A stretch of DNA of 64,000 nt, from positions 62,001 to 126,000 of the forward strand of contig WWBZ02000017.1 in assembly GCA_011503125.2 (NCBI GenBank). The letters are read 5' to 3'. Origin of the DNA: Botryosphaeria dothidea (Eukaryota > Ascomycota > Dothideomycetes > Botryosphaeriales > Botryosphaeriaceae). The notes beneath the pieces were generated by a model. The model saw only the letters and a list, made by a program, of their open reading frames with translations. It had not been told where the DNA came from and searched no databases. Positions 24,979-40,393 of this stretch are shown here, piece after piece (the stretch's first letter is position 1; each line of letters begins with the position of its first letter). A program made the position numbers and the translations under genes.

Positions 24979-25058
24979 TGTTACGGCGCAGCCTCCACAG
25001 GTTGAGGAAGTTAGGGATCAGCCCCGCCGGAACAACAGAAGTCGGGGTCATAAAGATC

Positions 25059-25189
25059 CGAGGTCACGTGACCTCGCGCTCAACTAGACCCACCCGCTCA
25101 GATTGCCAAGGCTGCCTGAGCGGGCCCCACCTACTGAGCCATCCTGCTCAATCACAACAGCTCGCTCAGAAGACTACGCGCCATTGAGC
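25059..25189. promoter_or_regulatory. Gypsy-3 LTR candidate operator cluster
   Basis: CGAGGTCACGTGACCTCG is an 18-bp perfect palindrome with an E-box core of the kind bound by bHLH proteins. It is followed by GCTCA or TGAGC at 25078, 25096, 25117, 25135, 25146, 25164 and 25185. Two of these form the ends of the CCCGCTCAG/CTGAGCGGG inverted repeat, which places CCG and CGG triplets in inverted order. It lies about 50-175 bp upstream of the TATA box; binding is inferred only. Confidence 0.5.
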
Positions 25190-25234
25190 GCAACCCGCCT
25201 ATTAAGCACATAGATTGTATAGAACTCTCCTACG

Positions 25235-25242
25235 TATATAAA
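25235..25242 (+). promoter_or_regulatory. Gypsy-3 TATA box
   Basis: TATATAAA in the U3-like part of the LTR; the RNA start is expected about 30-40 bases downstream, near 25271. Confidence 0.65.
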
Positions 25243-25458
25243 CCACGCTCTCTAGATAGCTTTGACCTTCGTGGTCAACTTCAATAACAATTCAGCACCA
25301 ATTGTTAGTAACAAGGCCTTCGCACGCAGTGCTCAGTCTTCAGTCGTCTACTCGTTCCTCACGTACCTCTTCTTGTACCCACTCAAGGAAAACCCTCGAC
25401 AGGTTTCCACCCTCTTTGGTGTTTGGATCCTTAGAGGTAGAGGCCCGCTCGTTACACT

Positions 25459-25553: not shown

Positions 25554-27383
25554 ATGGCACCAGGATCTCAGATGGACGTCGACCCAACGGAGGGCCGCGC
25601 TGAGGGTGCCCCAGGGCGTGCTCCGCCCGCGCTGCAAACAGAGCCTACCAGAGCTGAGCTCTTACAACTCATCGAGGAGTTGAAAGCTCAGAACGCTCGA
25701 CTGATCGAGCACACGACAAAGCGGAGCGCTACTAAGGTTAAAGTAGCGGCACCCGAGAAGTTCGATGGGGACAGGAAGAAGCTCCAATCCTTCCTACTCC
25801 AGATGCAACGCTACCTCCAGTTTAACCAAGCACAATTCGACAACGACGCCGAAGAAGTGCTCTTCGCATCAACCTACCTCAGAGGAACGGCAGAAGCATG
25901 GATGGAACCATACCTTCGCGACCACCTAGCCAACGAACACTCTCTCGAGAAGAGACGGGCAAAGACCAAGGAAATCTTCGACACCTACACGGGATTCGCA
26001 GACAACCTTAGGGCCACTTTCAACGATCGGGACGAAGTCCGCAAAGCCTCTAACGATATTATGACCGTTAGACAGATGGGATCTGTAGCTGTCTACGCAA
26101 CCAAGTTTCAGCAGCTTGCAGCCTACCTCGAATGGTCAGACGAGACTTTCCGCGACCTCTTCTATAAAGGCCTGAAGGACGAAGTCAAGAAGAACATGAT
26201 CACTCACGAATACCCACCTACCTTTCAGAAGATGGTAGACCTTGCGTCTCAGATCGACGGTCGCATGTACGAATGGAAGATGGGTTCTCGACAATCCAAC
26301 ACCTCGAAGCCCCGCCGTGAAAGAACAACCCTCGAAGGCGGAGACGCTATGGCCCTCGACGCGGCCAACAGACAGGATTCCAAGAAGGGCAACAATGGTC
26401 ACAACAACAAGAAGCCCAAGGGACCTAACCCGAACTGGACGGATGAGCAGAAACAGCGCTATAAGGATCGACTCTGCATCACCTGCGGCAGTGACAAACA
26501 CTTCTCTCCTAAGTGTCCGCAGAACCCTCGCAGCAAGAAGGACAACAAGCAGACTTCGAGCGCTCAGCGTGAAGCGTCGGTTGCATCTCGCCAAGACAAC
26601 CACGATACGCTACACTGGACAGCCTGTTACGATGACGGCTGTCAGACGCACCAAACCAGCAAGGATATCTCTGGATGGTACCCCCACGAACCTCGAAACT
26701 TCGGTATGATGACCAGGAACGAAGAAGTCATCGAAACCGACGATATCATCGATAGTTTCCCTCTAGACGACGAACTTGTCAACAGCGAAACAGGAGAACT
26801 ATACGAGAGTACTAGTGAAACGCAGTCAGATAATGCACCTATACCATCGGACAAACTAGACACCCTCGTCTCGTTAGAAGTTCTCGCTGAAAGATACGGC
26901 ATTGGCAACCACCTACGGGACGAATGGGGCAATCTTAGTCAAACAATCTGGATTCCGCATCAGAAAGGCATCGCGCTTACGGTCATTTGGGGATGGCGTC
27001 AGAACACCCTTTGGGAAACCCGAATTGAACAAGACGGGAAGAAGTACGAACTTCCGGTGACCAAAGAAACGACACTCGTCGAACGCCACCACCAAGGAAC
27101 CTCAGCACGCGAGCAAGCAGACTACGACTCCCTCCGGGAACTAGCACGGATTCTCTGCCAGTACGGCACGGCAACGATCCAGCATCGTACACTCCAGTGG
27201 ATTCCGGACAAGAAGCTCAATCGACCAACCTTTAGATATCAGGTTCGAAAGGACAAAGTCTACTGGCGAAGGAAGCAGAACTCCGACAAATGGACCAACT
27301 GGAAGCAAGCATATCTCCAAGTCAACGAATGGGAAGACTATATGCACAGTGAAGTCTACGGCTACCCTATGCCAAAAAACTAG
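25554..27383 (+). CDS. gag: Gypsy-3 Gag (609 aa)
   Basis: Structural protein that assembles the cytoplasmic virus-like particle and binds the element RNA. The N-terminal part is acidic with a coiled-coil-like stretch (about residues 25-50). The capsid-like domain at about 60-240 contains LRGTAEAWMEPYLRDHL and TYTGFADNLRATF. A basic linker precedes one perfect zinc knuckle, CITCGSDKHFSPKC (residues 308-321, CX2CX4HX4C). About 290 residues follow the knuckle, much longer than usual; the last 170 or so are rich in Trp and charged residues and look folded, but I do not recognise them. The ATG at 25554 is the first good start after the LTR and leaves a 97-base leader. It ends in AAA AAC TAG, a slippery site into pol. 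Confidence 0.93.
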   Translation: MAPGSQMDVDPTEGRAEGAPGRAPPALQTEPTRAELLQLIEELKAQNARLIEHTTKRSATKVKVAAPEKFDGDRKKLQSFLLQMQRYLQFNQAQFDNDAEEVLFASTYLRGTAEAWMEPYLRDHLANEHSLEKRRAKTKEIFDTYTGFADNLRATFNDRDEVRKASNDIMTVRQMGSVAVYATKFQQLAAYLEWSDETFRDLFYKGLKDEVKKNMITHEYPPTFQKMVDLASQIDGRMYEWKMGSRQSNTSKPRRERTTLEGGDAMALDAANRQDSKKGNNGHNNKKPKGPNPNWTDEQKQRYKDRLCITCGSDKHFSPKCPQNPRSKKDNKQTSSAQREASVASRQDNHDTLHWTACYDDGCQTHQTSKDISGWYPHEPRNFGMMTRNEEVIETDDIIDSFPLDDELVNSETGELYESTSETQSDNAPIPSDKLDTLVSLEVLAERYGIGNHLRDEWGNLSQTIWIPHQKGIALTVIWGWRQNTLWETRIEQDGKKYELPVTKETTLVERHHQGTSAREQADYDSLRELARILCQYGTATIQHRTLQWIPDKKLNRPTFRYQVRKDKVYWRRKQNSDKWTNWKQAYLQVNEWEDYMHSEVYGYPMPKN

Positions 27384-27431
27384 ACGGCCCTACGGCAATG
27401 GGACCAACCCAGGGGCCACAGTCTAGGTCCC
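27374..27431 (+). promoter_or_regulatory. Gypsy-3 -1 ribosomal frameshift signal
   Basis: A AAA AAC (27374-27380) is in the correct phase (CCA AAA AAC TAG) directly before the gag stop. A five-base spacer leads to a possible H-type pseudoknot: stem 1 pairs GGCCC (27386-27390) with GGGCC (27413-27417); stem 2 pairs GGGACC (27400-27405) with GGTCCC (27426-27431). The -1 frame is open from CTA at 27380 straight into pol. Confidence 0.7.
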
Positions 27432-30400
27432 TTCATATGGTATCGCGCACATCGGAAACGGAAACTCTTACCGGACCAAACCTATGGAAACAGTTCAAGA
27501 CACAAGGAATACTCAACGGAGTACCCACTAGAATCCTGATCGATACAGGATCAAGCGGAAATTTCATCCACAACGAGCTTGTGCAGAAGATGAATATCCC
27601 ATACCGCAAGAAACAGGAACCGTATCCCCTCAGTGGATTCGACGGATCCCAGGCAGCCTACGGAGAAGGCTGGGTAAAGATAGAAACGGAGGAAGCAACC
27701 CTCCAGATAGGGAACCATCAAGAACGGATTTCCCTCGACGTCCAACGTATTCCTGGGCACGATATCATTCTAGGTATGCCCTGGATCCGGACACAGAAAC
27801 CTATCTTCGACTTCGGAGAAGGAGACTCCATTATCTTTCGAGAGGAGCTCGAGGACCTCCTACGAAAACAAGGATTACAGAAGGAGAATGGGTTGTTGGA
27901 TACCCTTCGAAAGCTCCTATCGACATCAACACGGGAAGTAGCCAGTGTAAGGCCTGAATGTGGCAACTGTGTAGGCGACTCCGATAGTGGTGTAAGTCAG
28001 CACCAGGACTGCGACGCAAGTAGCGAAGCCTCCTCGGTAAAATGCAACCCTATTGCAGGAATAAGCCCTACTAAGCGAAACGATACCCCCGACTTAAGAT
28101 ACGACTCTAGCCACGATGGCGTGAGGCCCAGTGACGGCAGCATCAACGGCAATGATGGCGTAAGGCCCAGCGACGGCAGCATCAACGGCAACCTTAAGGA
28201 AAGCGTAAAACAGGACCAGGACAGTAGCGTACGAGACGCCGCCTCCTCGGTAAAATGCAGCACCTCAAGCGGAGTAAGACCAACCGAGTCTAGTATTCCC
28301 GACGAACAAGTACAGCATACGTCACGAAGGACTACGAGGAAAAGGCATAAGGCTAAGAGTAAGGCTTCGCGTAAGCAATTAGCAGCCACTGAACCTCAAG
28401 TCGACGTCCAGACAATCTCAGGAGAGGCATTCAAGCGTATGAGACGCCAAGGCCAGCAGGTCTGCCTCATGTACATCAAACCCTCACAGGCGGTGCAACA
28501 GAGAGCACTAGCCAAGGCCGCACGGGAAAGGCTTAAGGATGAGGATAGTCCTACTCCCATTGGAGGAGACGATCCCGCGAGGATTAGAAGGGGACAACAC
28601 GGTAGTTTGGAGACATGGAACAATCCATACGGAGAACCTCCAATACCGGAAATGGAAACGGTACCCAGCGAGTACTGGGACTTAAAAGCCGTTTGCCAAG
28701 AAAGAGGAAAAGGAGATTTGCCGAAGCATCAACCATGGGACCACGAGATTCCACTCAAGCCGGGCACGAAGCCAGCTTATAAGCCCATCTACTCCTTATC
28801 AGCAAAGGAAATGGAGGCTTTAAGGGAATACATCGAGAAGAACCTCGAACGCGGATATATTCGGCCTTCAACGTCATCAGCCGGATATCCGATCCTTTTC
28901 GTCCCAAAGAAGAATGGCAAACTACGCCTCTGTGTCGACTACCGACAACTCAACGACATCACGATCAAGAACCGCTATCCGCTCCCACGCATCGACGAGC
29001 TCCAGGACAAGTTAGGGAAAGCAAAGTACTTTACGAAGCTGGACCTCCGGGAAGGATATCACCTGGTTAGGATCAAAGAAGGGGAAGAATGGAAGACAGC
29101 CTTCAGAACGAGGCTAGGACTCTACGAGTATACGGTTATGCCATTCGGGCTTACCAACGCGCCAGCAACTTTCCAAAATCTTGTCAACGATACGCTGCGC
29201 GAATACTTGGATATCTTCTGCTTAGCTTACCTCGACGATATCCTCATCTTTTCAGAGACCCTCGAGGATCATAAGAAGCATGTCAGAAAGGTCCTAGAAG
29301 CCCTCCAGGCAAAGAATCTGTCTATCGCACCCGAGAAATGCGAATGGCACGTTCAAAGGACAGAATTCTTAGGCTTTGTCATCACCCCAGGTCACGTCGG
29401 TATGGACGACTCGAAACTGGATTCCATTAGAGAATGGCCAGTACCCAAGACGATCAAGGAAGTTCAGTCTTTCCTTGGATTCGCGAACTTCTACCGAAAG
29501 TTCATTTGGAACTACTCAAAGGTCACGGAACCTTTAACGCGACTCACTCGAAAGGAGCATGGCTTCAAATGGGGAGACGATCAGCAGCAAGCCTTCGAAT
29601 CGCTTAAACGCATGTTTTGCGAAGCACCGGTTCTAGGGATATATGATCCCGACAAACCTATCGAAGTAGAAACTGATGCGTCAGGATTCGCCCTCGGAGC
29701 ATGTCTCAGCCAGCCTGACGATCAAGGTCGATGGCACCCAATCGCGTTTTACTCTAGGAAGTTCACACCGGCAGAGCTCAACTACGATACTCACGACAAG
29801 GAGCTCTTAGCTATCGTCTCAGCATTCAAGCAATGGAGACACTATCTTGAAGGAGCCAGCTACCAGGTGGTAGTGCACTGCGATCATCAAAACCTCACGC
29901 GCTTCACCACGACTAAGGAGCTGAACCGACGACAGGTTCGCTGGTCTGAAGAAATGGCCTCCTACGATTTTAAGATTACACATAGAAAAGGTGTAGATAA
30001 CGCCGCCGCTGACGCACTCAGTAGAAGGGTAGACTACATGGAAGGACGAATCGAGCCGCACCCTGCAGTGTTCGCAGTGGATAGCGATGGATCGCTCACC
30101 CTTGCCAGACCGTCTTTCCCAATGCTTCGCATCGAGTCAAACCCATGGCATCTGAAGATCCGAGAAGCATACGCACAGGACTCCTTCGCGCAGGAACTTT
30201 TAGCGCTTGAGGACGACCCGCGTATTGCTCGAGATAGGGAAGGAACGCTTCTCTTCAAAGGATTAATCTATGTCCCGGCAAGACTGCGAGAAGTACTAGT
30301 CAAGGATATACACGAAGCACCCGCGCATGGACATCAGGGCATCGACAGGACAACCGAAAGGATCACACGAAACTTCTACTTTCCAGGGTTACGGAAGACA

Positions 30401-32191
30401 GTCCAGCGCATAGTCTCGCAATGTGACCTTTGCATTAGAAGCAAAGCCGCGACACACGCTCCGTACGGACAACTACAACCCCTAGAAGTTCCAGAACGAC
30501 CATGGCAATCGGTTACGCTAGACTTTATTACGAAGCTGCCACAGTCTAGAGACTCGCTTACCGGAGTTAAGCACGACTCGATCCTAGTCTTTGTCGACAG
30601 ACTCACGAAGTACGCTTACTTCTTGCCCTACCTCGAGGCATCGAATGCAGAGCAGCTAGCTCATACGTTCCTCCGATACATCTTCGCGGATCACGGAATG
30701 CCGGAAGAACTGGTTTCGGACAGAGATAAGCTAATGCGTTCTGAATTCTGGCAAACGCTCATGCGTCAACTTGGGGCTAAGAACAAACTCTCTACAACCG
30801 CACACCCGCAAACGGACGGTCAGACAGAACGGATGAACCGGACTCTCGAACAATATCTCCGCTGTTTCGTCAACTACCCACAGGACGATTGGGCCACATG
30901 GCTACCTATGGCACAGTTCGCCTACAACAGCGCCAAACAAGAGTCAACCAACGTATCCCCGTTCTTTGCCAACTATGGATTCGAACCAGACGCGTATAGA
31001 GAAGCCATCCCAAGTCGAAAATTGGCCCAACAAGGTGTTCTTAAAGCCGAGCAGCTAAAAGAACTACACAAAGCCATCAGTCTCGACCTCGAGCACGTAC
31101 GAATCATGATGTCCAAGTACTACAACAGACGGCACCAGGCGGCACCGAACCTAAAGAGGGGGGATAAAGTATACCTCCTCACAAAAAACATCAAATCGAA
31201 GCGACCAAGCGACAAATTGGATTTCAAGAAAACCGGTCCATTCGAAATTTCAGAAAAACTTGGAAACGTTACGTATCGACTCAAATTGCCAGCAACGACA
31301 CGAATGAATTCCACCTTTCACGTGGCATTGCTCGAGCCAGCACCAGAAAACGCCACAATCCCAGAAACTCCAGAAGAGATAATCCCAGAAAACCCAGATG
31401 CCGAAGAAGACGAATACCCAGTCGAGAAAATCTTAGACTGCAAAAGATTCGGACATCAGCTCAAATATCTTGTCAAATGGGAAGGATACGGAAATGAGGA
31501 TAACCAATGGGTACCCAAGGACGACATACATCCAGATCTCGTCACAGAATTCCACCGTCAAAATCCCGACCTCCCACGGAAACGAGGTCGTCCCCGAACG
31601 AGAACGGCGAGAGACCCTCAAGATAGGGGGATAAACGGGCAGAATTCACAGGCTCAGGAGAGCACGGAGATTTCGCACCAGCCACAGGCTCGCCGGCAGA
31701 CTCGGCAGACTCAGCCACATGCGGCGCAGCAAGACCCACCGTCTCGTGACGTGGCCGTTTTGACGCGGACGGACCCTCAGAATTCTCAGGGTCAGGAGCG
31801 TACCCCTCATCCTCGGCCAGCGCAGCCAGCAACTCCTCCGCTTCCCGACGATCATGCTCATCCAACGCGGCCAAACTACCAGACTCAGCAAGAAGAGCCT
31901 TGTAACCACGCTCCTCCAATAAACGCTGGTTGGCCCGCAACCGTTTCAAACGAGCAGCAACAGTCCCTAGCTCTTTCTCCTGGCATCGCAGGACCTCCTC
32001 ATGACGACGATGCATCTCCTCTTGCTCCCGCCGTAAGCGCACTCGCTCTTCCTCCTGAACAGCACGGAGCCTATCAAGATCAGCCAGAGAAGCCAGAAAC
32101 TTCTCTTGAGCCTCGGCCTCCTTGGCCTTTAACTTCTCCTGCTCGCGGCGAAGACTTAAGGCTAGAAAACGTGAGCAAGCATCCCGGATAG
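27398..32191 (+). CDS. pol: Gypsy-3 Pol polyprotein (1597 aa from the internal ATG)
   Basis: Copies the element RNA into DNA and inserts it. Protease DTGSS at residues 49-53, then a long acidic linker with a duplicated GVRPSDGSINGN block. Reverse transcriptase about 455-680, with YLDD at 611-614. RNase H about 755-885, with the first catalytic Asp at 760. Integrase HHCC zinc module about 970-1015 (H-X-H...CDLC). Core with D1042, D1108 and E1144; 35 residues separate the last two, the classical D,D35E. Chromodomain about 1336-1390 (YPVEKILD, QLKYLVKWEGY), typical of chromoviruses and expected to direct integration to methylated-histone chromatin. Residues 1390-1597 are low-complexity and lie opposite the antisense gene. 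The product is probably made as Gag-Pol by the -1 shift from 27380; the ATG at 27398 is the start of convention only. Confidence 0.95.
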   Translation: MGPTQGPQSRSLHMVSRTSETETLTGPNLWKQFKTQGILNGVPTRILIDTGSSGNFIHNELVQKMNIPYRKKQEPYPLSGFDGSQAAYGEGWVKIETEEATLQIGNHQERISLDVQRIPGHDIILGMPWIRTQKPIFDFGEGDSIIFREELEDLLRKQGLQKENGLLDTLRKLLSTSTREVASVRPECGNCVGDSDSGVSQHQDCDASSEASSVKCNPIAGISPTKRNDTPDLRYDSSHDGVRPSDGSINGNDGVRPSDGSINGNLKESVKQDQDSSVRDAASSVKCSTSSGVRPTESSIPDEQVQHTSRRTTRKRHKAKSKASRKQLAATEPQVDVQTISGEAFKRMRRQGQQVCLMYIKPSQAVQQRALAKAARERLKDEDSPTPIGGDDPARIRRGQHGSLETWNNPYGEPPIPEMETVPSEYWDLKAVCQERGKGDLPKHQPWDHEIPLKPGTKPAYKPIYSLSAKEMEALREYIEKNLERGYIRPSTSSAGYPILFVPKKNGKLRLCVDYRQLNDITIKNRYPLPRIDELQDKLGKAKYFTKLDLREGYHLVRIKEGEEWKTAFRTRLGLYEYTVMPFGLTNAPATFQNLVNDTLREYLDIFCLAYLDDILIFSETLEDHKKHVRKVLEALQAKNLSIAPEKCEWHVQRTEFLGFVITPGHVGMDDSKLDSIREWPVPKTIKEVQSFLGFANFYRKFIWNYSKVTEPLTRLTRKEHGFKWGDDQQQAFESLKRMFCEAPVLGIYDPDKPIEVETDASGFALGACLSQPDDQGRWHPIAFYSRKFTPAELNYDTHDKELLAIVSAFKQWRHYLEGASYQVVVHCDHQNLTRFTTTKELNRRQVRWSEEMASYDFKITHRKGVDNAAADALSRRVDYMEGRIEPHPAVFAVDSDGSLTLARPSFPMLRIESNPWHLKIREAYAQDSFAQELLALEDDPRIARDREGTLLFKGLIYVPARLREVLVKDIHEAPAHGHQGIDRTTERITRNFYFPGLRKTVQRIVSQCDLCIRSKAATHAPYGQLQPLEVPERPWQSVTLDFITKLPQSRDSLTGVKHDSILVFVDRLTKYAYFLPYLEASNAEQLAHTFLRYIFADHGMPEELVSDRDKLMRSEFWQTLMRQLGAKNKLSTTAHPQTDGQTERMNRTLEQYLRCFVNYPQDDWATWLPMAQFAYNSAKQESTNVSPFFANYGFEPDAYREAIPSRKLAQQGVLKAEQLKELHKAISLDLEHVRIMMSKYYNRRHQAAPNLKRGDKVYLLTKNIKSKRPSDKLDFKKTGPFEISEKLGNVTYRLKLPATTRMNSTFHVALLEPAPENATIPETPEEIIPENPDAEEDEYPVEKILDCKRFGHQLKYLVKWEGYGNEDNQWVPKDDIHPDLVTEFHRQNPDLPRKRGRPRTRTARDPQDRGINGQNSQAQESTEISHQPQARRQTRQTQPHAAQQDPPSRDVAVLTRTDPQNSQGQERTPHPRPAQPATPPLPDDHAHPTRPNYQTQQEEPCNHAPPINAGWPATVSNEQQQSLALSPGIAGPPHDDDASPLAPAVSALALPPEQHGAYQDQPEKPETSLEPRPPWPLTSPARGEDLRLENVSKHPG

Positions 32192-32416
32192 AAGAAAAGA
32201 CCACCTACCTCCAGAAAGCGACATCTTCTTCGCATCACACATCGTAGTACCCTTCGCAATACAAGCACCACAACGATCGTGTTCCGGAGCAACCTTACAC
32301 GGCCTACCGTTTAGTTCACAATCAAAGCAGGGACGAATCGCGGGAAAGGAAATAGACTCCACGAGGGCCGCCAAACGACGTCGTTCCTCCGTAGTATCCC
32401 GCTTACGTTTAGACAT
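31542..32416 (-). CDS. Antisense two-exon gene: Zn(II)2Cys6-like, coiled-coil protein (275 aa predicted)
   Basis: Exon 1 is 32209-32416 and exon 2 is 31542-32161, joined over a 47-base intron (GTAGGT donor at 32208, TGCTCACG branch-like site, TTTTCTAG acceptor ending at 32162). 208 + 620 coding bases make exactly 276 codons with stop. The start MSKRKRDTTEERRR is basic. Next comes a six-cysteine cluster with spacing CX2CX6CX8CX2CX7C, which fits the fungal Zn(II)2Cys6 pattern, though the usual Lys/Arg-rich loop between Cys 2 and Cys 3 is weak. Exon 2 opens with about 110 residues of Glu/Arg/Leu-rich coiled coil, then an acidic segment, an SKRPR basic patch and a Ser/Pro-rich end. Cluster plus coiled coil is the layout of Gal4-type DNA-binding proteins. 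It lies wholly inside the element, opposite the pol tail. Function is inferred; splicing is unproven. An in-frame upstream ATG exists at 32587, inside the LTR. Confidence 0.72.
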
Positions 32417-32502
32417 GATGGACTTACGGAGAGAAAGTAAGCCAGGAAGAACCCACAAGGAAATAGGCAATACGGAAGAATCTTCGGGCCGAAGATCCTT
32501 AA

Positions 32503-32514
32503 GGGGGGGGATAG
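32503..32514 (+). promoter_or_regulatory. Gypsy-3 polypurine tract
   Basis: GGGGGGGGATAG ends exactly at the 3' LTR start; standard plus-strand primer site. Confidence 0.85.
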
Positions 32515-32992
32515 TGTTACGGCGCAGCCTCCACAGGTTGAGGAAGTTAGGGATCAGCCCCGCCGGAACAACAGAAGTCGGGGTCATAAAGATCCGAGGT
32601 CACGTGACCTCGCGCTCAACTAGACCCACCCGCTCAGATTGCCAAGGCTGCCTGAGCGGGCCCCACCTACTGAGCCATCCTGCTCAATCACAACAGCTCG
32701 CTCAGAAGACTACGCGCCATTGAGCGCAACCCGCCTATTAAGCACATAGATTGTATAGAACTCTCCTACGTATATAAACCACGCTCTCTAGATAGCTTTG
32801 ACCTTCGTGGTCAACTTCAATAACAATTCAGCACCAATTGTTAGTAACAAGGCCTTCGCACGCAGTGCTCAGTCTTCAGTCGTCTACTCGTTCCTCACGT
32901 ACCTCTTCTTGTACCCACTCAAGGAAAACCCTCGACAGGTTTCCACCCTCTTTGGTGTTTGGATCCTTAGAGGTAGAGGCCCGCTCGTTACA
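32515..32992 (+). repeat. Gypsy-3 3' LTR (478 bp)
   Basis: Same length as the 5' LTR, and I see no difference between the two. On the minus strand it could drive the antisense gene, whose start lies about 100 bases from the LTR edge. Confidence 0.96.
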
Positions 32993-32997
32993 GGAAA

Positions 32998-33230
32998 GGA
33001 TAAATACTAAAGTAGAAAGGAAGCTCGCGCTGTTCGTAGAGCACTATTAATAAGACTGGGCGGACCGGTTACCGGTAGTCTAGTTGGCTCTTAACGGAAG
33101 AACCTTAACTACGACGTAGGTAAGCCCGTTCTTTCTTTCCCACGGGTACTATCTCGAGCCTCTAGAGCTATCCGAAGATATCTAACCTAGTAACCTCTAA
33201 AGGGACTCTCTAGTAGTAAGGGCCGATATA
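32998..33230 (+). pseudogene. Gypsy-2 integrase continuation
   Basis: Resumes the frame cut at 24978: RINTKVERKLALFVEHY, then WADRLP-like and VSPFFLSHGYYLEPLELSEDI. Contains RIP stops. Ends with TAAGGGCCGATATA, the target duplication of SINE-1. Confidence 0.8.
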
Positions 33231-34093: not shown

Positions 34094-34241
34094 TGTTGGA
34101 AATTACGTGTTTTGCATATTGCTTTTGCAACACCAGATAGCTTAGTCACTCACTTACGTATATAAGGAGGGTAGGCCACCTACGCCCTTCCTCCTCATGC
34201 CAATCATCAATAGATCATTATTGTTCATCAATATACCAACA

Positions 34242-34255
34242 GTTATGAGCCCGGG
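34242..34255 (+). promoter_or_regulatory. Copia-1 primer-binding site (initiator tRNA-Met half)
   Basis: GTTATGAGCCCGGG is complementary to the GGGCTCATAAC anticodon stem-loop of initiator tRNA-Met, the half-tRNA priming known from Drosophila copia and Ty5. Copia-2 has the RIPed form GTTATAAGCCC. Confidence 0.7.
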
Positions 34256-34550
34256 ATCACTTCCAAAACTCGTTATCCATCGTTTGATCTCTGTATAAGC
34301 GTCTCATACGCTTATAACGTTCTCTCTGCGGCATCCAGAAGAACACTATATTATTACACCCTGCTATAACACACTGCGACCGTGCGACGGCTTCCCTCCA
34401 CGTGTTATTTCATCAATAGTTATCACGACACAGCTATTTGCCTCAACATCGAGCATCTTAAGTGTCTGATACACGTTCCTAGCTAGCTTTAACCCTTTTG
34501 GTTAGCTGTACGACGTCAACTGACGAATAGCACCTATTCGTTACCCACTA

Positions 34551-35660
34551 TGTCGTCTTCGAAGCCAATTATCGTCCTCAAGTCTTCGCAAGACTGGGAT
34601 GAATAGTTCTTTATCGTCCAATCGCGTGCAAAGAAGGCTCGCTTATACGACTACATCGATCTAACCAAGGACTCACGTCCGCAACAACCAATCGCGCCTA
34701 CCAAGCCTCCTCTACCAACAGGCAACATCACCGACGCGGATCGTGAGGAGTATAAGTGGAAGCGCGAGGACTATAAGGAGGATAAAAAGGAGTACGACAG
34801 GCAGATGCGAGAGCTCAATAACCTCTTATCACTCATTAAAGACTCAGTGTCTTAGCCACTGCTGCCGCTCCTGCGCAAGATCGAGGACTCTTATCCCTAT
34901 GCGCAGTTGCGCGCTCTACAAGCTCGACTCCAACCTTCCGTCTCTACACAATAGGAGTTTATTCTCAACAAGCTCCGCGAGCTTGAGAAGCCTCCAACTA
35001 CCCAGAGCACTGAAAAGTGGCTCACACAATGGGAAGAGTGTGTATTCAAAGCACGCTCTCTTGGCCTCTCTGATGTCGAAGGCTCTCGAGGAGTAAATGC
35101 ATTCCTCAAGCCTATCATGCAACACGACTCAGAATACGCTAGCCCTATCCTTCGTGAGCTGCGACTCGGTACTAAGACGCTTAACGTTTCAGATGTCATT
35201 GTCGATTATCGTGAGCATGCTCGCCAGAAGCAAGCGCTTATAACGAACAAGACTTATGCGACCTTCGCAGCTACTCTACGAGGCGAGGAGCAGCCGCAGA
35301 AGCCTCCTAAATGCTTATATGGACTCTTACACTAGTACTTCCAGTGCTTCTATCTCAATCCGAACGCGCCTAACCGTCCTGCCGACTTCAAACCAAATAA
35401 GAAGGTCCAGGATAAGATCCTTAAGCTCATGAAGAATGATAAGATCAAGACGCAAGTTGAGAATGCACTCAAGCGCGGTACACCGCCAACACCTCACACA
35501 CAAGGTAACAAGGGTAAAGGCAAGGAGCCTAAGCCTGACACGCTTGCAAATGATAATAATAGTGATAACGAGCAAGGATCTATTAAGTCCTTCCCAGCCG
35601 TTGTTGCGCAGTCATTTGCTACGCACCGAGACTCGCGTCCAACCACGTTGGAGCTCTCAT
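34551..35660 (+). pseudogene. Copia-1 gag
   Basis: ATG at 34551 (MSSSKPIIVLKSS). It continues through TAG codons at former Trp/Gln positions to the zinc knuckle CLYGLLH-stop-YFQC near 35311-35350. This matches the short fungal Copia knuckle C-X-C-G-X2-H-X4-C, with its second Cys changed to Tyr. A Lys/Asn-rich linker follows. Confidence 0.75.
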
Positions 35661-38600
35661 AGATCGCAGATACTGGTACCACTCATCACGTGTGTAACAG
35701 ATATATGCGCAAAAGGTTTATCAAGACACGCAACGCAGGTCCAGATGACTTCGTAATCTGCGGTAACACGCGTGTGCCTATTAAGAGCTTCGGGAATGTC
35801 ACAGTTAATGCCCGCAACGGAAAGAAGAGCAAGGTTATTACCCTTCGTGATGTAGCCTACGTCCCAGCATTCATAGGCAACTTAGTCTCTATTTCTAAGT
35901 GCAATGAGAAAGACGTTCATATGGATACTAAGAGTCTTCGACTCTATAAGGACGACACTATAGTGTGTGTCCTTACTCCGTCTGAAGGACAGTTCTTTCT
36001 TGAACTACACCAAGCAGAGTCCGTACTAGCTATTACGAGTGCTGCGACCACCCGTAGTCTCCTAGCTGAACAGTGGCATAGAGTCTTTGCTCATACTAAC
36101 TACCACGCTATTAAGGCGTTGCTTATAGCTGTTACCGGCGTAGAGTTTACGAACGACGTCGTGCCTATTCACTGCGACACCTGCTCGCGAGCAAAAGCTT
36201 ATTAGCTTATTACGCGAGACTTATCACTAGAGGAAGCTCGCAACGAGTTATTCTTCCGAGTCTCATTTGACCTCATCCAGATGACGCCCGCCTTCAATCA
36301 ACACGAGTGAATCACTCATATCGAGTGTATAAAGAGCAACTATGTCTTTACCCGCACCTATATGCTCAAATCAGACTACAACACGCTCATTCTCGATATT
36401 CTAAGTATAATCGAACGTCGCTTTGACGCTCTCACTGCGTTCTTTCGAACTAATGGCGAAAGATCACTTAATACCGCGTTTAAGGCTGAACTTAAGCGAA
36501 GAGGAATCACAATAGAGGTCTCAGCACCCTATACACCTGCTTAGAACGGACATGCCGAGAGAACTAGTTAGTCTATTATTATCAAAGCACGAGCAATGCG
36601 TATCGGGGTAAACCTCCCTGAACGCCTATAGCTAGAGATAGTCCTAGCAGCAACGTACATATATAATCGGACGCTAAGTAAAGTCCTTAAGTGGAAGACG
36701 CCCTTCGAGCTTGCTTATAGCATTAAACCAAACGTAGCTCACATGAGAGTCTACGGATGCAAGGCCTACGCCCTTAACAAAACTATCCCGCGTAGTAACA
36801 AGCTCCAAGAACGAGCCCTCGTTGGCTATCTTGTTGGGTATGACTCCACCAATATCTACCGGATATGGTATCCACCAGGGGACCGTATCATCCGCTCAAG
36901 AGACGTCAGTTTTAACGAGTTATCAAAATACTCACCAGATGAGCAAGAGCAGTATCAAGAAATCGAGGATGTAGAAGAGGAGCCTTAGGAGGTAATTCCT
37001 CGCATCCGTCTAGGCTCTGAGGACCTTATCACGTCAGATTCGTCGTCCAGTAAAGATGAGGAGGTTACTCATGAGCAAGCCACTAATATAGAAGAACAAC
37101 CTACTTCGTCATCAGATGGACAACAACAAGGCATACTGCCTAATAAACCAGATGTACAATATACTTAACTACATACACCATCGCCGTCCACCACGGACAA
37201 TAGTATACCACACCCACTAAGCGATGACGTCTTGCCGTCACCTACTCTCAGAGACTCGCACACCTTAGGGGGTGAGGAAGACGAATAATAGCAAGAGGGA
37301 CGCCTTGGTCGTCTCCTCCCTGGTCAATACGATACTAAGCCTAACCTAGGAGCAGCACGGGGCAATCGTGCACCCCTTGCAGCCAATATCAACGCGGACC
37401 CTAACCCGAACCTTATCATCGAAGGTCCAAGGAATCGAAGAAGAGCTGCGCATGCCGCGAAGGTTATCAGTAACGCTTACTATAAGCAGACCTTTCTCGC
37501 CGCGAGCATGTGTGCACTGCTTAAACACGCTCCTACGGGTAATCACGAGCAAATATCTTAACCTACTACACACGAGGATCCTCCACCCTCATATCAGTTA
37601 GAGGAGCTTCCTCCTCTACCACGCATTCATCGGGACAACCTTCCGCCCGAGCCTCGTTACTATAAGGATATTCTCAAACACCAACTCAAGCCTTATCTCT
37701 TTCAAGTACTCTACCGTAAGCTATAGGAAGGCAATGGTAAGGGGGTGTGGATCGTTGTAGACGAGGATCAAGCACGCAAGGCCAACAAAGAGGTCATTCC
37801 TCTTACATGGGTCTTCAAATACAAATTCGATAAGAAGGGATATCTCACTAAGATTAAGGCACGAGTATGCGTACGAGGTAACCTCCAAGTCTCCTACCAA
37901 GACACATATGCGGCTACCCTTGCCTTCCGCATCTTTCGCACGCTTATAGCGATTATCTGCGCATTCGACCTCGAGATATGGCAATACGACGTCGTTAATA
38001 CCTTTCCTCATGTCCCTCTCGATTAACCAACCTTCTGCCGAGCACTAGAAGGCATGACACTTCCTTATAGGAAGATCTTATTGCTTAAGAAAGCTCTCTA
38101 TGGGCTTAAAGAGTCGCCAGCGTTGTGGCAAAAGCACTTTCAAGCCACGCTCAAAGACCTAGGACTTGAGCCTGTGCTAGATGCTCCATGTCTCTACGCA
38201 AACGAGCACCTCTTTGTGTTCTTCTTCGTAGACGATATTATTATAGCCTTTCCTAAGAAGGATGAGCTATTCGCGCACGTATTCGAACAAGACCTCTTTT
38301 AGCGCTACGAGATACGTAAGATAGGAGAAGTTTAGTAGTTCTTAGCTTTACGAATCGTCCGTAATCGAAGTAAGCAACTGCTATAGCTATTATAGGAGTT
38401 ATACCTTACTAGCCTTAGGGCTAAATATAACGTTAAAGAATTATCGGTTGCCACGCCTCTTCCGATAGAGGACCTACCTACCCCAAATAACGAGGCTCAT
38501 GCAACACCTCAAGACATCCATACGTTCTAGAGTAAGATAGGATCTGCCTAGTTCGCTGCTATTAGCACGAGACCTAATATAGGCCACGCCTGCTCAGCCC

Positions 38601-39200
38601 TCTCTACGTATTTAACGAACCCTTCTAAGCGACACCTCTATCTTGTACACCGCCTCCTAGAATATCTCGTAAACACGAAGGACCTCGCAATTATATATAA
38701 CGGCAACGTAGTAAATAATCAACGCATCTTCGTGCCTAGCAGTAATGCATCCTTCGCAAATAACACGGCTATACGCCGTAGTTACCAAGGATTACTTATA
38801 ATGCTATTCGACGGACCCGTGGACTAGAAAGCCTCCAAGTAACTAATAGTAACGACCTTAACAACGGAAGTAGAGCTCCTCGCTCTATTAGAGACTGCTA
38901 AGCAAGTATACTAGTAGAAACGCTTCTTTAGAGGCATCCAATTTGAGCCAGGTCACCTCGTTTAGATCGAGTATAACAACATATAGACGCTCCGCCTTAT
39001 AGAAGAGAACGTCGGAAAGCTTGTTACGAAGCTTCGTCACGTTGATATCTATTACCACTAGCTTAGGCAAGAGACTCAAGCAGGCAACGTTTACTTTAAA
39101 TAGACACTAATAGCTTAGATGATCGCAGACGGTCTCACAAAGCCGTTAACAAAGCAAAAGCACGCCCACTTTATGCAAGGCTTAGGCCTCTTATTACTAC
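35661..39200 (+). pseudogene. Copia-1 pol (PR-INT-RT-RNaseH)
   Basis: Protease IADTGTTHHVCN at about 35663. Integrase HHCC module (QWHRVFAHTNYHAIKALL...CDTCSRAKAY) to 36205, catalytic core to about 36560, and the GCKAYALNKTIPRSNKLQER block at 36743-36988. Reverse transcriptase 37745-38302 (PLTWVFKYKFDKKGYLTKIKAR; FFVDDIIIAF intact). RNase H about 38500-39190, ending IADGLTKPLTKQKH-like. The frame is split by at least ten stops. Confidence 0.85.
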
Positions 39201-39503
39201 AATAGTAATTATAAGCGTACACACCGCTTAAACCAGATTATCACCATTTTATTTATATATTTCGGTAATCACGTTCCTTTTACACTATTAAAGGTCAACA
39301 CTAAGTAGATTATCGCGCACTGCCCGATCGGACACCACGCGAAGGGGGTATGTTGGAAATCACGTGTTTTGCATATTGCTTTTGCAACACCAGATAGCTT
39401 AGTCACTCACTTACGTATATAAGGAGGGTGGGCCACCTACGCCCTTCCTCCTCATGCCAATCATCAATAGATCATTATTGTTCATCAATATACCAACAGA
39501 TAT

Positions 39504-39582: not shown

Positions 39583-40393
39583 TAATATAACTACCTTAGA
39601 ATAGGTTCCCGGCCACCGGAATATAGTAGGAAACGAAGAAGCTGATTCCCTAGCAAAGTACGCGGCAAAATGCCCTCCAAAAACTAAAGAATCTAGCCTA
39701 GCTTTCTACCGAATGCTAGTAAAGCAAGAACTAGATAAGGAGTGGCTCTTCAAAGCGGAAAAGCTTAAGAAACTAGCCCGAGAATCCTCCTATTTAAAAA
39801 CGTTTAGTTGGAAAATAAGGAAAAAGCTAAATCTCCCTCCTACGGAGCGGGAAATAGCCTCCGCCTTTTACCAACTAAAAGTAGGACACGGCTACTTTAA
39901 GTCCTACCTATATAGGTTCTCCTACGCGGAAACGGACCTATGTACGTGCGGAACGGCCAAACAAACCCCTAGACACCTTATACTAGGATGTTCTCTTTAT
40001 AAAGCCCCCCGGCTTAAAATAAAAGAACGCCTAGAGACACTACGCCCTAGCCTTAATTCGGTTTTAAATACCCGAGAAGGTATTCTAGCTATGCTAGAAT
40101 ATCTAAAAGAAACGAGGATCGCTACGCGGAAATGGCGCCTTAACGAACTATCCGAGGGGATTTAAAATACCTACTTATCCGCTTACGCTCCTTACCTACT
40201 ACTTCTTTAAACCCTCTTACTTTCCTTAGTATTAGTTATCTCGAAAGCCTAGATCTAACCGTTTCTTTTCTCTAACGTGCCTTTACCTTTCTCGAAACTA
40301 CGCACCCCCTAGGAAGCTCCTTTAAATAGGGCCGTCTAGATAGTTTTTAACTTAGAGTAGACGTAAAATAAATTAATTAATTAATTAATTAAT
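39583..40393 (+). mobile_element. LINE-E: 5'-truncated LINE of a second family
   Basis: About 0.8 kb with a perfect 14-bp target duplication TAAGCTAAGTATAG (39569-39582, 40394-40407) and a (TTAA)n tail. It holds only the end of ORF2, as expected for dead-on-arrival LINE insertion. The tail differs from the (TATC)n of LINE-A/B, so a different lineage made it. Confidence 0.85.
39600..40165 (+). pseudogene. LINE-E ORF2 C-terminus (RNase H end and Cys/His motif)
   Basis: The frame reads LE-stop-VPGHRNIVGNEEAD, the end of an RNase H domain with one RIPed Trp. It is then open for the rest: 150 residues from the Met at 39713 to a stop at 40165. CTCGTAKQTPRHLILGC (CX2C...HX4C) is the LINE C-terminal zinc motif, also seen in LINE-B. 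The first half of RNase H and everything upstream is missing. Confidence 0.8.

Follow-up and report, generated by a model that had tools for sequence, protein, structure and literature searches.

Does the strand opposite the 3′ end of pol in a fungal retrotransposon carry a gene of its own, and what might such a gene do? The question is raised by a 64,000-nucleotide stretch of Botryosphaeria dothidea DNA (contig WWBZ02000017.1, positions 62,001 to 126,000; the whole stretch is called the window), in which a Ty3/gypsy chromovirus, with protease, reverse transcriptase (RT), RNase H, integrase and chromodomain in this order, lies between two long terminal repeats (LTRs). It was found that the element bears a real, selected, intron-bearing antisense gene, as indicated by the ratio of nonsynonymous to synonymous substitution rates (dN/dS), by codon positions, by permutation, and by the conservation of splice signals. 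The initial annotation had joined two open reading frames (ORFs) over a 47-nucleotide (nt) intron with a GTAGGT donor, a branch-like site and a TAG acceptor, giving exactly 276 codons, and the coordinates bear this out:

32209-32416, minus strand: exon 1, 69 codons plus one base, encoding a basic N-terminus and the six-cysteine cluster; outside pol
32237-32329, minus strand: the CX2CX6CX8CX2CX7C cluster
32162-32208, minus strand: intron, 47 nt, phase 1, with the GTAGGT donor, the branch-like site TGCTCACG and a CTAG acceptor; it holds the pol stop codon of the opposite strand
31542-32161, minus strand: exon 2, encoding a predicted helical, coiled-coil half and then a C-terminal half more alike among cassette types; overlaps the pol tail
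31860-32156, minus strand: predicted long-helix (coiled-coil) stretch with approximate bounds, by analogy with the AlphaFold model of the relative P0008 and by alignment
31749-31760, minus strand: basic motif KRPR, with KRxR in 12 of 12 aligned proteins; possibly a nuclear localisation signal

Read on the minus strand from the ATG at 32416 to 32209 and, past the donor at 32208 and the acceptor ending at 32162, from 32161 to the end of the stop codon at 31542, the two exons encode 275 amino acids (276 codons with the stop). Exon 1 lies entirely beyond the end of pol at 32191, and the overlap with pol is confined to exon 2. The same junction is spanned in the annotation of three database proteins, P0001 (a 100% match, from B. 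dothidea) and, from Macrophomina phaseolina, P0003 and P0006, each with a start late in exon 1; these gene models are predictions, not transcripts.

Is the gene maintained in other copies? A DNA search of the element's own genome, a 51.7-Mb assembly, scored 40 of 62 candidates and gave 41 rows; two rows are one place, and 40 places were taken. Near-identical copies occupy 20 of the 40, the window's own counted, and the remainder are mutated by repeat-induced point mutation (RIP), damaged, or members of diverged groups: group A (L034-L037 plus the more mutated L041-L043), group B (L038-L040, L045 and L046) and group C (L047/L054, which are one place). A protein search gave at least 112 exon-level matches, and additional loci were taken, which brought in types D and E (L085/L105 being one place) plus several sister families.

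Long antisense ORFs can arise by chance, and exon 2 overlaps an open pol frame. However, exon 1 is constrained beyond pol, and because it lies outside pol the antisense gene is not a mirror of pol. With RIP-type changes left out, exon 1 differs from the window at antisense codon positions one, two and three by 4/3/19 (L034), 12/11/24 (L038) and 14/14/24 (L047), and third positions are also in excess in type E (16/10/26 and 15/11/30). The corresponding counts for exon 2 are 16/9/32, 19/16/39 and 45/33/57. By coordinate arithmetic, the third antisense codon position of exon 2 coincides with the second position in pol, and the second antisense position with the third in pol. The exon 2 substitutions thus fall on antisense wobble sites that are pol second positions, whereas changes at pol wobble sites are fewest in A and C and not enriched in B. 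When the same changes were relocated in 5000 permutations and synonymous counts were compared with expectation, antisense-synonymous changes in exon 1 were in excess in A (20 observed vs 8.8 expected), B (18 vs 10.1) and C (20 vs 9.7, over 135 bases only), with p<=0.002. In exon 2, the excess of 35 vs 17.5 in A and 41 vs 23.2 in B was reached in 0 of 5000 permutations. Pol-synonymous changes were below expectation in all three groups (p 0.002-0.017).

The initial annotation had proposed a comparison of dN/dS between the antisense frame and the pol tail. It was made by the NG86 method, with RIP changes kept and stop codons skipped, for eight diverged copies and one RIP-dead control (L029), and the antisense frame came out below 1 (0.06-0.59) while the pol frame gave 1.36-2.13. 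The antisense values are 0.06-0.11 (A), 0.32-0.35 (B) and 0.25 (C) for exon 1, and 0.17 (A) and 0.27-0.30 (B) for exon 2. The same exon 2 DNA read in the pol frame gives 1.81-1.97 (A), 1.59-2.13 (B) and 1.36 (C). For the control, with RIP changes only, the exon 2 values are 1.09 and 1.24, and exon 1 is undefined (6 amino-acid changes and 0 synonymous). Indels between groups come in multiples of three. The antisense frame is under purifying selection across the eight diverged copies, and a chance or mirror ORF opposite pol, whose probability I regard as negligible, is ruled out by the codon-position, permutation and dN/dS tests.

What does this mean for the low-complexity tail of Pol, which had been explained by selection on the antisense frame? 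The explanation stands for the residues: the amino acids of the pol tail in exon 2 show no conservation of their own and result from the antisense constraint. The pol frame over exon 2 is nevertheless stop-free in the window copy, which is equalled by 0.7% of synonymous shuffles; in L049, 1% of shuffles do as well, and in L087, with one stop, 24%. Since the frame is kept stop-free beyond the shuffles, the tail is probably still translated. It is probably a little constrained extension of Pol, whose frame stays open while its residues drift.

The splice signals are kept as well. An intron of 46-49 nt with a GT start and an AG end is found in 39 of 40 copies, the window's own counted (the exception is L044). 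Its place is kept while its sequence differs by 30-52% between groups; the donors are GTAGGT, GTAAGT, GTGAGT or GTAAGA, and the branch-like sites are GCTCAC (GCTTAC after RIP), GCTAAT, GTTAAC or GCTGAC. The type E copy L087 has a 45-nt, phase 1 intron. Among five copies of the L049 family, the donor has GT in L052, L081 and L082 and AT, a RIP change, in L049 and L083, and CTAAC lies near the acceptor in all five. Since the intron is in frame in L049 and type E, an unspliced product would be open there too.

In the near-identical copy L028 (G000:C15:1477-3501), the intron has gained one base and exon 2 has lost one by alignment, so that exon 1, the intron and most of exon 2 make one open frame. 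A GTAAGT donor-like hexamer lies a few bases upstream of the antisense ATG (32422-32427, minus strand) and also occurs in the aligned leaders of the window type, A, B, C and D and in 3 of 4 L049-family leaders; it could serve an alternative splice form without the cysteine exon or could mark a recombination point. The annotated B. dothidea protein P0002 (SLS57_006002) joins an N-terminus with the NAD-binding-type domains PF05368, PF13460 and PF01370 to the antisense coiled-coil half, and is either a chimeric gene or a gene-model error.

Are the cysteines conserved? The pattern CX2CX6CX5-12CX2CX6-9C has one match in the six frames of the window and 0 in 100 dinucleotide shuffles, and that match has the spacing claimed at the outset. 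The survey among copies covered 78 loci with a 3′ region, allowed Cys, Tyr or Arg, and took the best candidate by Cys count for each locus. The six-cysteine pattern is present in 67 of the 78, and all 67 have only Cys or Tyr codons at the six positions; TGY to TAY is a RIP change. The cysteines are thus kept between copies. The other 11 loci comprise four without the anchor sequence and seven without the pattern. The spacing is 2-6-8-2-7 in the window and A-C, 2-6-9-2-7 in D, 2-6-8-2-6 in E, 2-16-8-2-7 in the L049 family, and 2-11-8 or 9-2-7 in L050, L051 and L080. The Zn(II)2Cys6 (PF00172) spacing rule fits the window gene and type E and does not fit the L049, L050/L051 and L080 families. The closest spacing to that of Gal4 is found in L087, which is unbroken.

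The long coiled coil of the initial annotation is supported by a modelled helix in a relative rather than by a dedicated coil predictor. The AlphaFold model of P0008, made with 12 sequences, has a confident helix at residues 82-146, the first part of which is the in-frame intron stretch kept in that record, and low confidence across the cysteines. An exon 1 frame modelled alone was uninformative, with a predicted local distance difference test (pLDDT) score of 56.

How old is the gene? The host element and the parts of it that bear on this question and the next are as follows:

24979-25278, plus strand: 5′ LTR, 300 bp
25554-27383, plus strand: gag ORF, Ty3 capsid, Retrotrans_gag
27398-32191, plus strand: pol ORF with protease, RT, RNase H, integrase and chromodomain and the low-complexity tail over antisense exon 2
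31800-31950, no strand: mosaic breakpoint zone; divergence per 100 bp of ~0-4% towards pol (in type C, 5-7% over 300 bp) and 7-52% towards the LTR
32480-32496, no strand: 17-bp palindrome ATCTTCGGGCCGAAGAT, located between the polypurine tract and the start codon of the antisense gene and unchanged in 19 of 19 aligned leaders, which were picked for having it
32501-32510, plus strand: polypurine tract AAGGGGGGGG, adjoining the palindrome
32515-32814, plus strand: 3′ LTR, with the same sequence as the 5′ LTR; presumably supplies the antisense promoter

The LTRs are 300 bp each and 7,536 bp apart. The gene is antisense to gag-pol, lies between pol and the 3′ LTR with an overlap into pol, and is present with coding conservation in most of the family copies listed, as in the family of antisense additional ORFs (aORF-3R). 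It had been suggested that the same gene be looked for in related Gypsy elements, and it is present in the same place in the L049 and L050 elements, whose integrases match that of the window at 63% and 51%; since these copies are RIP-mutated, the true distance is smaller than the percentages indicate. The gene appears to be older than the split between these families and that of the window. Searches for related proteins, which scored the best ~8000 candidates only, gave 13 database proteins. The named ones are "hypothetical", and 11 of the 13 lack most of the cysteine cluster; the gene is easily overlooked in annotation. None of the 13 has another Pfam domain except the chimeric P0002, and capture of a host gene is not favoured on this ground among the candidates scored; the gene may have an unrelated-looking host ancestor. 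Residues 1-68 alone as a query gave 15 candidates, none at E<=10. Scanned viral contigs gave no relatives of the protein, an NCBIfam scan gave nothing of weight, and exon 1 searched against solved structures gave three marginal matches, all to one unrelated hydrogenase subunit.

Is the antisense gene inherited together with the rest of the element? Of 18 pieces of gag, RT and integrase taken from A, B and C, 16 were compared with the window, the unaligned gag and RT pieces of L038 being left out; in non-RIP differences they are 0.8-3.8% away from it, with RT third positions at ~4.5-7%. Beyond ~31,800-31,950 and as far as the LTR end, the divergence of these copies is 7-52% per 100 bp, and exon 1 third positions differ by 28-35% in A and B. 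Because the third-position rate in pol is about five-fold below that of exon 1, the pattern indicates an exchange of a ~1-kb 3′ cassette and not protein constraint. The last ~1 kb, which comprises the antisense N-half, the leader and the LTR, consists of diverged cassettes, with at least five types on nearly the same pol. The integrase of type E (L085, L087) is 92-94% identical to that of the window; for type D, the chromodomain alone was compared (82-88%, RIP-mutated).

LTRs and genes were typed by transversion distance with a cut of 0.06, sister families counted, and 72 of the 78 loci fell into 14 LTR types and 12 gene types. All but two LTR types are paired with a single gene type. The two others are LTR type 4, which comprises 23 window-type copies, L055 and L120 (both with a type D gene) and the damaged L048, and LTR type 1, in which seven D-like copies stand beside the rearranged L032. 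Among the genes, type 7 is found next to LTR types 2, 3 and 4, and type 4 next to LTR types 8 and 9. Overall, the exceptions to the pairing are two clear recombinants, L055 and L120, and one rearranged copy. L055 and L056 have a common D gene, while their leaders and LTRs differ as far as a shared CCGTAAGTC, apparently a recombination point. One locus without the cysteine pattern, L111 (G000:C8:22600-24420), has an LTR and a gene type unlike all others.

The mosaic may well be a by-product of minus-strand template switching between co-packaged RNAs without any functional match, a serious possibility if short of an even one, and compatible with the other readings considered below. During reverse transcription the 3′ LTR is copied first, the antisense gene next and pol only afterwards, and hence a switch ~1 kb in gives exactly the observed mosaic. 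The unmatched L055 and L120 fit this, and LTR type and internal region are also described as uncoupled in Podospora crapaud (PMC10787394, in its available parts). Template switching alone leaves unexplained that the breakpoints of A, B and C all lie inside exon 2 within ~150 bp, which shared homology could explain.

The palindrome follows the pattern ATCTTCGG[GC]CCGAAGAT and lies 63 bp before the antisense ATG. The pattern has 64 occurrences in the genome vs 0 for the reversed pattern, and 46 of the 50 sites listed are within 1.2 kb of an antisense gene match; the other four (L080-L083) carry the gene when read. The block of palindrome and polypurine tract (32480-32510) is nearly invariant between elements with an integrase match of only 51-63%. 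The palindrome may serve as a common site of the antisense protein, may contribute to polypurine-tract priming, or may do both. Being the same in the aligned types, it is not favoured as a type-specific operator.

What, then, might the protein do? The reading I favour, with a probability of roughly 0.5, is that of an element-encoded nuclear regulator of its own LTR. A minus-strand transcript would begin in or near the 3′ LTR and would be spliced once over a phase 1 intron of 45-49 nt, giving a product of ~200-275 amino acids with a basic N-terminus, a six-cysteine cluster that would bind zinc, a long helix that would mediate dimerisation, a KRxR nuclear signal and a variable tail. The dimer would act in the nucleus on the LTR/polypurine-tract-proximal DNA of its own element and would control how strongly the sense genome is expressed, most likely by lowering or tuning it. 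In arrangement, not in fold, this would be as in HBZ of human T-cell leukaemia virus type 1 (HTLV-1). The original suggestion of a regulator or self-limiting factor is plausible from the sequence features, and self-limitation is leaned to on two grounds, the antisense orientation of the gene and a product whose amount would follow the number of integrated copies.

Several results weigh against this reading. In exon 2 of type C, the excess of antisense-synonymous changes is only 41 vs 35.4 (p=0.12) and dN/dS is 0.59. Basic residues stand between Cys2 and Cys3 of Zn(II)2Cys6 proteins, and the window copy lacks this basic DNA-contact loop, with ELNGRP in its place (RSSNSK in L087). The Pfam Zn_clus check proposed in the initial annotation failed, as the cut-off of 21 bits was not reached in any version tested: window exon 1 scored 11.0 bits out of register and L087 exon 1 scored 14.2 bits in register, there was no listed match for L054 exon 1, L049 or P0008, and the window protein in full length gave no match at E<=10. 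Profile comparison by hhalign with 12 of 16 fetched host zinc clusters gave a probability of 6.6%, in register. Because of the Zn_clus scores and this probability, the cluster, although its spacing fits, is called Zn2Cys6-like and not a member of PF00172; it may bind two zinc ions and DNA. L055 and L120 join a window-type LTR to a type D gene, which shows that insertion does not strictly require a matching pair, and strict co-evolution of LTR and gene is unsupported. LTR and gene also adjoin, and linkage with template switching explains their co-segregation without co-adaptation. Finally, the palindrome stays the same while the cysteine domains differ, which misfits type-specific recognition of that site.

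A bolder version of regulation is rather unlikely: the antisense protein and the LTR would form an exchangeable "immunity" cassette, each type recognising its own LTR type and limiting or protecting copies, and, as part of the same proposal, elements would escape by swapping a cassette onto the same gag-pol, like the repressor-operator modules of temperate phages. It is similarly doubtful that the protein works in the retrotransposition complex, in import of the pre-integration complex, as a nucleic-acid chaperone or as an integrase or Gag partner. Cysteine clusters and coiled coils are also generally known from chaperones and particle proteins, the KRxR motif would suit such a role, the C-terminal half, coded beside the chromodomain, is more uniform among A-C and the window, and the role is named for plant antisense ORFs in the accessible part of a 2020 review (PMC7264820). 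However, a structural partner of conserved gag-pol would hardly be expected in five or more strongly diverged N-terminal types while pol stays nearly the same, an argument that rests on DNA for A, B and C and on the 92-94% identical integrase for E.

An anti-silencing factor opposing host silencing on its own family, like VANC of Arabidopsis VANDAL, with diversification by an arms race, is improbable to the same degree. The N-terminal half diversifies together with the non-coding LTR, which resembles the VANC pattern as far as partial accounts of it go, and the host mutates these elements heavily by RIP. Nevertheless, older copies do not escape RIP, and VANC targets, as partly described, are often tandem repeats, whereas the only arrays at 31000-33000 are two short ones of about two copies each, both outside the 3′ LTR. 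It is very unlikely that the functional product is the antisense RNA, as a double-stranded RNA trigger or by interference, with an incidental reading frame: antisense transcripts can trigger small interfering RNAs (PMC7264820, as excerpted), but the strong amino-acid-level constraint, the multiple-of-three indels and the kept splice signals are not what this would leave.

Elsewhere in the window, 153-bp direct repeats, 98% identical and 5,257 bp apart, enclose ORF fragments at 34094-39503, probably a second LTR element that is Copia-like by eye only. At 39713-40165 (plus strand), a 150-amino-acid ORF resembles, by eye, the C-terminal part of a reverse transcriptase/RNase H of the long interspersed element (LINE) type.

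Has such a gene been described? An antisense gene in this position is already known: brtn, an additional antisense gene between pol and the 3′ LTR of the chromovirus Boty of Botrytis cinerea (Zhao et al. 2011, Virology 417:248, as cited in the available text of PMC8365987, PMC7264820 and PMC4227169). The initial annotation knew of no described chromovirus with this gene, whereas brtn is an antisense gene of such an element and may be the same gene or another one. In the literature searched, available in part, this gene was not reported from Botryosphaeria, and no fungal element was described as having an antisense gene for a cysteine-cluster protein. The word "antisense" is absent from the main texts of a fungal survey (PMC3248453) and of the crapaud paper (PMC10787394), which describes LTR/internal discordance. 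Boty is likewise a fungal Ty3/gypsy element with a chromodomain and an antisense gene at its 3′ end (domains from the accessible text of PMC4227169); it is set beside the window gene by description only. No protein labelled brtn appeared in three protein searches, of which two were confined to scoring the ~8000 top candidates. A Monilinia transcript is reported to be similar to a truncated Pol and BRTN (PMC5987419, in part).

According to the available parts of PMC7264820, antisense genes have been known in LTR retrotransposons for years without a function. Those of plant Gypsy elements (Grande gene23, RIRE2, and Retand ORF4/TRP28) share position, orientation and family-wide presence with the window gene, and include a nuclear protein in Grande and suspected DNA binding in Retand. 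They differ in having other domains (TRP28, SMC-like), with Retand a non-chromovirus, and no six-cysteine cluster is mentioned in those parts. The present locus is a clean case, with coding selection shown against an overlapping pol frame, a natural RIP-dead control and many near-identical copies in the genome, and its natural LTR/gene pairings and recombinants are available for mutual comparison. The protein resembles the Gal4 type (PF00172) in six cysteines of compatible spacing followed by a helix, and differs in scoring below 21 bits, in the lack of the RxRKxK loop in the window, and in the gap between Cys2 and Cys3, which measures 11 or 16 in sister families. VANC of Arabidopsis is, in the partial accounts available, element-encoded and diversifies with its own non-coding DNA; the likeness is one of analogy. 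VANDAL elements are DNA transposons, unlike the window element. HBZ of HTLV-1 is described, in sources available in part, as antisense, spliced, starting in the 3′ LTR and inhibiting Tax-dependent activation; as a basic leucine zipper (bZIP) factor, it is of a domain kind unrelated to the cysteine cluster, and this too is analogy only. By analogy, VANC would be the closest counterpart for diversification and HBZ the closest working analogue. Regulation of the element's LTR by the antisense protein, if real, would give fungal chromoviruses a self-regulator of the HBZ kind and would offer a handle on the control of their copy number.

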